Source: Sneathiella limimaris (lineage in GTDB: Bacteria; Pseudomonadota; Alphaproteobacteria; Sneathiellales; Sneathiellaceae). From it: a stretch of 64,000 nt of DNA. The notes under the pieces were generated by a model. The model searched no databases, had not been told where the DNA came from, and saw only the letters and a program-made list of their open reading frames with translations. Every line of letters begins with the position of its first letter. Position 1 is the first letter of the stretch. The stretch is from positions 2,480,001 to 2,544,000 of the forward strand of contig NZ_JABBYJ010000001.1 of the NCBI RefSeq assembly GCF_012932565.1, given 5' to 3'. Positions 37,643 to 58,368 of this stretch are shown here, one piece after another. A program made the position numbers and the translations under genes.

Positions 37643-38377
37643 ATGCTCACCAAAAAACAACATGAACTTCTCATGTATATTCACACTTATCTTGAAGATA
37701 GAGGTGTTTGCCCATCATTTGATGAAATGAAAGAAGCATTAGATCTGAAGTCCAAATCTGGCATTCATCGATTGATTACGGCCCTTACCGAACGCGGCTT
37801 TATTCGAAGACTTCCGCATAGAGCGCGAGCTTTGGAAGTGTTGAAACTTCCAGATGCAGTTCTCCCGGAAGGAATTGCAAAGCGGCACCATCGTTCTTTG
37901 CCCCCTAGCAGTGAAGGAACCGTTGTAAAAGGCGACTTTGGTGGCAAAAATCAAGTTCATGGACAAAGCCCGTCATCACCTGAGAGTGAGCATGCGAGTG
38001 TCAGTTTGCCATTGTTTGGTCGCATTGCGGCCGGCATGGGAATTGAGGCCCTCTCAGATCCAAACAGTTTTGTTGATATTCCGCCGGCTCTGTTGGGAAA
38101 TGGCGATCACTACTGTTTGGAAGTTGATGGCGACAGTATGATTGAGGCTGGTATTAATGATGGCGATACGGTTATCATTAATGAATGTAAAACAGCTGAA
38201 AATGGCGCAATAGTTGTTGCTCTCATCGACGATGAAGAAGTTACGCTAAAGCGTATACGGCGCAAAGGAAATACTGTAGCGCTGGAAGCTGCAAACCCTA
38301 AATATGAAACTCGGATTTTTGGGCCAGATAGGATCAAGGTTCAAGGAAAGTTGGTCGGTCTTTTTCGGAAATATTAA
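37643..38377 (+). CDS. lexA: SOS repressor LexA
   Basis: 244 residues. An N-terminal winged helix ([40 protein letters not shown]), a long linker (about 70-120) as in alphaproteobacterial LexA, then the self-cleaving S24 peptidase: scissile A130-G131 in [12 protein letters not shown], nucleophile S165 in DGDSMIEAG, and base K203 in EVTLKRI. RecA-stimulated autocleavage induces the SOS genes. It is autoregulated through the box at 37586. The last 4 bp overlap convergent comEC, and its terminator lies inside that gene. Confidence 0.98.
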
Positions 38378-40428
38378 TTTCCATTCCTGTCTGAAGATGT
38401 GCTCCCAACATGTCTGACCCAGGGCCGATCACCCCTACCCCCGTTTACAGTCTGTAGACGGGGTTTTTCTGTGTTTAAGTAAATCGCATGTGCTCCATTT
38501 CGCCAGAAATCAAAATAATCAATTATCAGCTCCGGTTTTTCGCAGCCTCTAAACACAGGTTTACTTGAAATTAGAATATTTGAAAAATTGCAGTCACTTC
38601 TATGAGAAGTCTTGTTTTCAGAATAGGTAACCCTGTAATCCTTTTGCTTCCAACTACAGCCCAATGGATCACAATTACCTTTTAGGTCATTGAACTTTTT
38701 GTCTTTCAAAAAAGCCGTTAGAGAAGCTGTTCCATAATAGGATTGCCAACGGTCCTGTTCAAATCTGTCATGACGCCGGGAATTTACCAAAGTCGCATTA
38801 TCAGTATGGATGAGAACTAGTTTTCCACTTTCAGAGACCAGTATATCCGGAAGTTTATTTTGTATCTGCAGGACGAAAGCGAATGACATTGGGAGAACCA
38901 TCAGATATTGAACCCTACTTTTCATGGCCAGGAACCCTAATCCAGACAGGGAAATAAGAACAACGATTTCAGTTGAAAAAGGGACAACTTTCAAACTTGC
39001 GTAAGGAAGAGAGGCCCCCCAGCTTGCCAACTCAACCACTTTCTCAACACCCATCGCAGAGAGGTTTAAAGCGATTGAGGAAAGATCAAATGGCATCAAC
39101 AGGAACCCGAGAATAGCCCAGGGCATGATCCAAAACCCCATTAGGGGTATTGCGATTAGGTTCGTCACAACACCTGCTACTGCTAACTGGCCGAAATGGT
39201 GAATTGAAAATGGTGCCGTTGCAGCAGAAGCCACCAAGGATGTAAAAGCGACACCCGATAGGTACAGAACCGGACGCAAAGCAAAGTGGCTCTTACCATG
39301 GAGGATGAATAGCTTTTCGCCCCATTTTTCATAGACCGCTATCAGGCAGAAAACCGCAGCGAATGACATTTGAAAACTCGGCCCTAACATACTTTCTGGC
39401 ATAATAAGAAGGATCAAGAGGGCTGCTATGGAGAGGTTTCGAAGGGAGATCGCACGTCTGTCCAAGCAAATCGCCAAGAAGACCAATGTAATCATCAAAT
39501 AAGCCCGTATGGCTGATATCGACAGGCCACTGATTGCCAGATACCCTGTGACAGCAGTTATAGCAATACAGGCAGATATTTTCTTTATTGGATAATTTAA
39601 GGCAATTGGGGGAATACAACTCAAAACTAGCCTTGTAAGGAAGAATATAAAACCACCCAACATCATCATGTGAAGCCCCGAGATGGCCAGCAAATGGGCA
39701 AGGCCAGAATTGCGCATGTCGTCTTTGAGCTTGTCTGTCAGTTTACTTTTTTCGCCCACCATGATGGCAAGAAGAAAACCCGTTTGTTCATCAGGGGTAT
39801 TATTCTCAATATGCCGGGCGATCTGATGACGGATGGTTTCGACATCAACCAAAGATCCTTGTTTTTTAAGAATGTCTGGTTTTGAGACAGCATATCCAAC
39901 GGCCCCTATTCCCTGGAAATACAGATCTCGCTGAAAGTCGTATGACCCGGGATAGACAGGTGCTGGGGGTGGCAACAATACTGCTTTTATCTCGATGATA
40001 TCGCCTGGAGCTAAATCATCCACTCCGGTGCGAACAGTTAGTCGTATTTTGACAAGAGTATCAATGGAAGCATCATTTGAACGCACATTTTGTAAAACCA
40101 CCCTTGGCGCTTTCTTGTCCAACTCCACATGGGCCACTGTTGCTGTCAGGGTGCCAAAGCTTCTTTTTTGAAGAACGGGTGAAGAAACAAGGGTCTCCCG
40201 TATTTTTGCACTGGAAAAACCGATGGATAGTGAGACTGAGATAACAAGTAATAACAGAAGGTAATAACTTGCCCGTAGCTTAAGAGCTATCACCACTAAG
40301 GGCAAAAAAAACACGGGTAATAAGGCCCATATAAAATCAGGCTCGTTTTTTAAGCGAGAAATAAATCCCGATCCCTGCCCCAACAAGAACAGGCAAAAAA
40401 TAAAAGAACTGTTCCCGCTCTTCCTCAA
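38374..40428 (-). CDS. comEC: ComEC/Rec2 family DNA-uptake channel protein (N-terminal frameshift likely)
   Basis: 684-codon ORF for a polytopic membrane protein. An N-terminal OB-like soluble region (about 85-190, with [17 protein letters not shown] and [19 protein letters not shown]) is followed by the Competence domain ([34 protein letters not shown]). No full metallo-beta-lactamase domain is present, only a short soluble C-terminus. The frame as read begins at TTG (40428). Frame +1 starts at ATG 40438 and encodes a family-like N-terminus ([20 protein letters not shown]) that stops just after an A6 run at 40351-40346; deleting one A joins it to [10 protein letters not shown] of the main frame. 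Either a real disruption, slippage or a sequencing error. Confidence 0.85.
38439..38468 (+). terminator. lexA terminator embedded in the comEC 3' end
   Basis: 11-bp stem with one G-U wobble (38439-38449 with 38453-38463, GC-rich base CCCCG/CGGGG), 3-nt loop, followed by TTTTT (38464-38468). It lies about 60 nt past the lexA stop, inside the antisense C-terminal codons of comEC. Confidence 0.85.
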
Positions 40429-40586
40429 GAGTGGCCATTAGTTGCCGTATGAATTCTCTGATAATGCCCCCCTTAATCGCAAGCCCGGACTTGCTCTTGT
40501 CTTAAACAACGAGTAAAAATGCCCGGGAATCAGAGTTTAGGTACTATTCTAAACCAGGAATTGAATTTTTAATAAAGTAATTTGCC

Positions 40587-41996
40587 ATGACTGTTGTGAC
40601 CCGCTTTGCTCCGTCTCCTACCGGTTTTCTCCATATTGGAGGAGCTCGTACTGCCTTGTTCAACTGGCTGTTTGCAAAACACCATCAGGGAAAGTTTCTG
40701 CTACGGATTGAAGACACTGATCGGGAACGCTCTACTGAAGAAGCAATTGACGCCATTTTGGCTGGCATGAAATGGCTAGGCTTGGATTGGGACGGGGAAC
40801 CAACTTATCAGTTCTCCAGAAAAGATAGACACATTGAAATCGCCAAACAGCTCATTGATGAGGGAAAAGCCTATTATTGCTATGCCTCCAAGGAAGAGTT
40901 GCAAGAGATGCGTGAAAAAGCGCGCGAAGAAGGCCGGGCACCGGGGTATGATGGCCGTTGGCGGGACAGAGATCCATCTGAAGCTCCTGAGGGTGTTGAT
41001 CCGGTTGTTCGCTTTAAATCACCAAATGAAGGCGAAACCGTTATTCGGGATCAGGTTCAAGGCGACGTTACAATTAAAAACAGTCAACTGGATGATCTGA
41101 TCCTCCTTCGGGCTGACGGCACGCCGACATATATGTTGTCAGTAATCGTTGATGATCACGATATGGGCGTAACACATATAATTCGAGGCGATGATCACCT
41201 GACAAATGCGGCTCGTCAGATACAGCTTTATAACGCGCTGGGATGGGAAGTGCCTGTCATGGCCCATATTCCCCTAATTCATGGCCCAGACGGTGCTAAG
41301 CTGTCTAAACGCCATGGCGCTCTTGGCGTTGAGGCTTATCAGGAAATGGGATACTTGCCAGAAGCCTTGCGCAATTATCTTCTGCGGCTGGGTTGGTCAC
41401 ATGGAGATGATGAAATTATCTCTACTGAACAGGCGATCGAATGGTTCAACCTGGAAGCGATTGGGAAATCTGCCGCGCGATTTGACTTTGCAAAACTGGA
41501 AAATCTGAATGGAACCTATATCCGAAATGCAGAAGATCGCTATTTGACAGAGCTGATTAAACCCCTTCTAGAAAAGAAATTTGATTGTAAAATCAACGAC
41601 CAACAGTTTACAGCCATCGAAAATGCGATGAACGGCTTGAAAGAGAGAGCAAAATCAGTAATATCCCTTGCAGATAGCGCAGCTTTCTTACTGGCCAAAC
41701 GGCCCCTGACAATGGATGAGAAGGCGTCTAAGCTATTAGATGACAATTCAATTCTGGTCCTGCAGAAACTAGCAGATCGACTGGAAGCTCTTGGTAATTG
41801 GGATAAAGATCACATCGAAGGGGTGGTGCGGGAGACTGCCGACTTGGAAGACCTGAAGCTGGGCAAAATTGCGCAACCCTTAAGGGCAGCTTTGACAGGA
41901 ACAACAGTATCTCCCGGTATCTTTGACGTATTGGAGGTTTTGGGCAAAGAAGAGTCCATAGGCCGGATCAGAGATACAAATAAAACAGAGAGTTAA
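40587..41996 (+). CDS. gltX: Glutamate--tRNA ligase
   Basis: 469-residue class I aminoacyl-tRNA synthetase. The HIGH-type motif HIGG (16-19, in [20 protein letters not shown]), [11 protein letters not shown], the tRNA/Glu pocket [15 protein letters not shown], and the KMSKS-type loop KLSKRHG are present; the C-terminal helical bundle is of normal length. Many alphaproteobacteria carry two GltX paralogues and misacylate tRNA-Gln; which one this is cannot be decided here. Divergent from comEC over about 150 bp; gltA follows. Confidence 0.97.
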
Positions 41997-58171: not shown

Positions 58172-58202
58172 TCTGCAATAACTCCTTTTCCGGTTAAACC
58201 TC

Positions 58203-58271
58203 CGTGGGTCGTGGTTTGGATCACCCAAACACCGGACGGGAAACATCAACACAATGAAACCCAAACCCACG
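58203..58271 (-). promoter_or_regulatory. Candidate structured leader of rpsB mRNA
   Basis: Complementary arms CGTGGG (58203-58208) and CCCACG (58266-58271), extended after a bulge by TTTGG/CCAAA (58215-58219 with 58261-58265), close a roughly 40-nt loop about 30-100 nt before the rpsB start. Autogenous control of rpsB by S2 through its leader is known in other bacteria; assigning this structure to that role is inference. The remaining dnaE-rpsB gap (to 58368) is AT-rich with no ORF and must hold the promoter. Confidence 0.35.
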
Positions 58272-58368
58272 TGTGAATTTACATCGCGGTACCTACTCTT
58301 CCTCCCCTTCAGATGCAAGGAAAAAGTTCACTTTTCTGAATTTAATTACTGTTTTTGAGAATTACTGG

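Follow-up and report, generated by a model that had tools for sequence, protein, structure and literature searches.

The comEC gene of Sneathiella limimaris does not read as one continuous frame from start to end: the frame is broken at positions 40346 to 40351 of the window (the whole 64,000-nucleotide stretch analyzed here, part of a 3.66-Mb genome in three contigs). On the minus strand, an ATG at 40438 opens a frame with a ComEC-family N terminus, which meets a TGA at 40339 to 40337 right after a run of six A's at 40351 to 40346. The main frame of 684 codons, which contains no further stop and retains both Pfam domains, has its first start at a TTG at 40428; the ATG sits ten bases upstream of this TTG, in a different frame. 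The comparisons reported below make it somewhat probable that a recent private indel inactivated an ordinary chromosomal Sneathiella comEC, which encodes the DNA-uptake channel. The features concerned are the following.

38374 to 40428, minus strand: main frame of comEC, 684 amino acids from a TTG as first start, with DUF4131 at residues 30 to 183 and Competence at residues 223 to 502, family-like from NEPDFIW on (open reading frame list and Pfam).
40337 to 40438, minus strand: comEC 5' fragment, a 33-amino-acid ATG-started open reading frame with a family-like first membrane segment (open reading frame list and genus N-terminal profile, E = 5.8e-11).
40346 to 40351, minus strand: A6 run (T6 on the plus strand) at the frame break, inside a 7-base stretch versus 6 bases in 20/20 readable relatives (sequence and junction comparison).
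37643 to 38377, plus strand: conserved gene that we take to be lexA, downstream of comEC, convergent with it and overlapping it by 4 nucleotides (open reading frame; product matches DNA at 20/20 same-genus comEC loci, one partial).
40587 to 41996, plus strand: conserved gene, presumably gltX (glutamyl-tRNA synthetase), divergent and upstream of comEC (open reading frame; first 300 residues match DNA at 20/20 same-genus comEC loci, two partial).

Family match and same-genus comparison

The 33-residue peptide of the upstream frame matched a profile built from the aligned N termini of 20 same-genus comEC loci with an E value of 5.8e-11. Among 11,720 peptides of at least 20 amino acids, translated in six frames from 400 kb of the same genome, the best E value besides that of the same open reading frame was 0.35, and the frame break is therefore counted as more than chance. 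A longer profile gave the upstream frame 37.4 bits up to the A6 run and the main frame 29.2 bits in all over residues 6 to 74, the latter alignment stretching weakly and ill-matched over the part before the run. The main frame exceeds the curated cut-offs for the Competence domain (PF03772, 215.1 bits versus 23) and for DUF4131 (PF13567, 59.0 bits versus 31.6), as well as that of the subfamily_domain model TIGR00360 (74.2 versus 36.5). It falls short of the NCBIfam equivalog TIGR00361 (121.2 versus 190.05 bits), a score obtained for the protein of the window gene alone. A DUF4131 plus Competence profile is among the types counted in the available part of PMC6299819. The closest known system is the ComEC/Rec2 of Alphaproteobacteria (DUF4131 and Competence, without Lactamase_B). 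The window gene has the domains, length, and neighborhood of its same-genus relatives, but a frame break interrupts its first ∼30 codons.

The ComEC protein was searched against 23 same-genus genomes, 20 of which have a readable gene start; the remaining three have the gene split over two contigs (G004), no match (G007), or a C-terminal fragment only (G009). All 20 readable genes run in a single frame through the break point and begin with a pattern of the ...RW-F-x-W-x-PV..G-x-GI-x-xYF type, which is least exact in L003 and L009. In the relatives, exactly two codons follow ...(Y/F)(F/Y)-x-L (two of them have V or C in place of the L), after which come E, Q, or H and then P (18/20; the exceptions are EL in L007 and ER in L009). 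Between CTT, where the family-like codons end ahead of the run, and GAG, where they resume after it, there are 7 bases in the window and 6 bases in each of the 20 relatives. In none of these relatives do the 60 bases at the junction contain a homopolymer at least six bases long. A conserved programmed frameshift was rejected because none of the 20 carries the run there. Judging from these alignments, the frame-break event is private to the source genome among the same-genus genomes compared. The split match in G019, a candidate for a second broken comEC in the genus, was rejected as an assembly gap of N's.

These results bear out a sequence-only reading of the window, which had proposed that the comEC N terminus is split at the A6 run: the two open reading frames, the profile E value, and the junction of 7 versus 6 bases all agree with it. 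Its coordinates for the T6 run and the ATG are exact, and so is its description of a poor TTG-started frame with an atypical N terminus, although the window carries no annotation and the frame that it called annotated is simply the longest open reading frame. Removal of one A, which it expected to give a continuous family-like protein, corresponds to the one-base excess over 20/20 relatives. Relatives starting in another way, or without the family-like start, would have spoken against the proposal, and all 20 have the family-type start in a single frame.

Sequence quality around comEC

Translated searches covered 400 kb around the window and 400 kb from each of three relatives (G008, G011, and G022). 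Candidate internal frameshifts numbered 5 in the source genome, 5 in G011, 4 in G022, and 72 in G008. With 72 sites in 400 kb, the G008 draft (L132 to L151) looks rich in indel errors, and its gene calls need care. Four of the five candidates in the source genome appear solely with proteins of this draft and were discounted on that origin alone; the fifth is a tRNA-Leu gene.

Coding DNA covered by orthologues amounted to 288,623 of the 400,000 bases and contained 239 A/T runs that were at least six bases long (204 of six, 28 of seven, and 7 of eight bases), none of them at a convincing break. Aligned coding DNA of the same 400 kb also contains 38 G/C runs of at least six bases. The 239 runs lie in single-frame alignments and are intact by construction, so that the informative part is the split-alignment scan, which found no convincing frameshift elsewhere in the source genome. 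The end-of-gene scan, which is blind to unaligned ends under 12 residues, used 463 queries and yielded 96 unaligned ends, with a maximum score of 34 in the shuffled control. It recovered comEC with scores of 69 and 38. Three other groups of matches were rejected as terminal frameshifts: the tRNA-Leu gene at L124:15153-15236 (score 70), which is an RNA gene; the leader of a gene that we take to be rpsB from its product (scores 59 and 48), which is Rfam RF01815; and three weak matches (39, 38, and 35 versus the shuffled maximum of 34), which are low-similarity pieces of seemingly over-extended homologue starts. The leader RNA lies on the minus strand at 58178 to 58275 of the window (49.3 bits versus a cut-off of 40), and the conserved DNA there imitates a frameshift upstream of rpsB. 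Neither the split-alignment scan nor the end-of-gene scan thus detected another convincing protein-coding frameshift in the 400 kb sampled. Because the 239 A/T runs are without a convincing break, homopolymers are well called in this region, and this shifts weight to a real mutation without proving it.

Age of the frame break and competing explanations

In a tree of 19 loci (that of the window and 18 relatives), the terminal branch of comEC is 0.681 for the source genome, compared with 0.664, 0.656, and 0.725 for the three nearest lineages. The ratio of its ComEC mean distance to that of LexA plus GltX is 4.47, the second highest of 19 (range, 2.87 to 4.49), and the nearest lineages have ratios of 4.49, 4.25, and 4.35. 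By mean tree distance, the rate of ComEC evolution across the 19 same-genus loci is about three to four and a half times that of LexA plus GltX. The window ComEC departs from otherwise uniform alignment columns 7 times, relatives on the same branch 11 and 8 times, and the other seven rows 0 to 4 times. No second lesion was seen in comEC. Since the branch is not above those of its sisters and there is no second lesion, a pseudogene that is old on the scale of the lineage branch was rejected; the readings left are that the mutation is recent, that the base is an error, or that the gene still functions.

A recent null mutation is favored because the surrounding 400 kb is clean and comEC has a terminal branch of much the same length as those of its sisters. 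The 20/20 intact relatives, the retention of both Pfam domains, and an intact dprA in the same genome also count for it. Against it stand the distance ratio, second highest of 19, and the fact that a single error left in 400 kb would give the same picture. Such an error, with a chromosomal run one base shorter and comEC intact, has an appreciable though smaller probability: a single homopolymer indel in an otherwise undamaged gene without clear acceleration, private to one genome, is what it would leave. In addition, the available part of PMC3711429 (2013) expects singleton frameshifts in public genomes that are validated by BLASTp to be sequencing errors and not genuine indels, an expectation that applies to the comEC break as a BLASTp-validated singleton. 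The error reading is opposed by the lack of any other convincing break in 400 kb whose aligned coding DNA contains 239 A/T and 38 G/C runs at least six bases long, and by the shortness of the run. A longer T8 run in the same gene (40311 to 40304, minus strand), about 35 bases downstream of the break, is called in frame within the main frame.

It is unlikely that the A6 run provides reversible on/off control or that slippage there, during replication, transcription, or translation by the ribosome, rescues the gene. On/off slippage switches often sit near the start of a gene, and here the break falls exactly on a slippable run, close to the gene start. Such runs of six are, however, common (345 in 400 kb of the source genome, 171 A6 and 174 T6), and no run of this length or longer occurs at the junction in any of the relatives (0/20). 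Runs under nine may slip in some bacteria according to the available text of PMC1088944, which also finds avoidance of slippery A/T runs evident only at nine in many genomes. Slippage would further have to remove one base, and the part of PMC5574713 at hand describes deletions in homopolymer transcripts of E. coli as rare, insertions there as mostly of one base, and deletions in long runs of Buchnera as commoner. The homopolymer-based phase-variable and transcription-slippage genes treated in the available parts of PMC3711429 and PMC1088944 likewise have a frame break at a single-base run, but the run in the window is shorter than the lengths used in those studies (7 or more, and 9), is not conserved, and needs a one-base loss. 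Among the matches listed for comEC with “phase variation,” no switch at a comEC run was recognizable from titles and the beginnings of abstracts. Still more doubtful is the idea that the run recently became a contingency switch in one Sneathiella species, whose cells would alternate between five and six A's and in this way open and close the supply of the DNA-uptake channel.

It is equally unlikely that the gene is functional as it stands, with a start at TTG 40428 and a substitute first membrane segment from the other frame. This out-of-frame segment is still hydrophobic (best 19-residue mean of 1.38 versus 1.87 in the family frame), the weak long-profile alignment of the main frame runs through it, and the remainder of the gene is without clear decay. 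Opposed to this are the absence, by eye, of a visible ribosome-binding site at the TTG and the fact that the segment breaks a pattern kept by 20/20 relatives. Of the three causes offered by the sequence-only reading, a recent inactivating mutation thus fits best, a sequencing error retains some weight, and on/off control by slippage found no support.

Probable consequences for DNA uptake

The recent null mutation would have begun with the gain of one base in the A run, probably by replication slippage, which would have shifted the first ∼30 codons out of frame with the rest. We infer that the chromosome itself carries the extra base, that the gain is of recent date, and that little or no function is left in the product. 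Ribosomes starting at ATG 40438 would stop after 33 codons, a few codons past the run, and reaching the long frame from this ATG would take the loss of one base or the gain of two. Protein would be made only from the TTG start, which lacks a visible ribosome-binding site, or by reinitiation after the TGA, and would be without the first membrane segment of the family. ComEC serves the entry of DNA into the cytoplasm; most likely, the protein would be lost or strongly reduced, and DNA entry likewise.

Other genes of competence and transfer were sought in the same genome. Besides the intact dprA, a ComF-like gene was found below the cut-off, and no classical PilT passed (63.5 bits versus a cut-off of 319.1). 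The gene-transfer-agent marker PF13547 was found 0 times in the source genome and in 0/13 same-genus genomes searched. Across the same-genus genomes G001 to G013, PilT was above the cut-off in 1/13 (G004), and dprA had a match in 13/13 (partial in G009). Viral contigs searched with the ComEC alignment gave 103 stretches that fit a pattern, none of them a relative. The sole literature match for “Sneathiella” with “natural transformation” was a review on plastic waste.

Losses of single competence genes are documented for comEC in Piscirickettsia (PMC12955456, available part), and the accessible text of PMC1626085 describes frameshifted comB, comE, and comM in Pasteurellaceae. These are likewise lesions private to a lineage, in competence genes that are otherwise conserved. 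The Piscirickettsia comEC, as described in that part of PMC12955456, is interrupted by transposable elements and carries frameshifts, stops, and deletions as well, whereas the window has a candidate lesion of one homopolymer base. Losses of competence genes like the one proposed here are thus already on record. Should the base be genuine, this isolate has probably been left without the final step in DNA uptake, whereas its close relatives have the gene whole, and it would add another case of sporadic loss of competence. If the base is an error, annotation of the record would give comEC a false N terminus. Neither outcome alters the views of the field.
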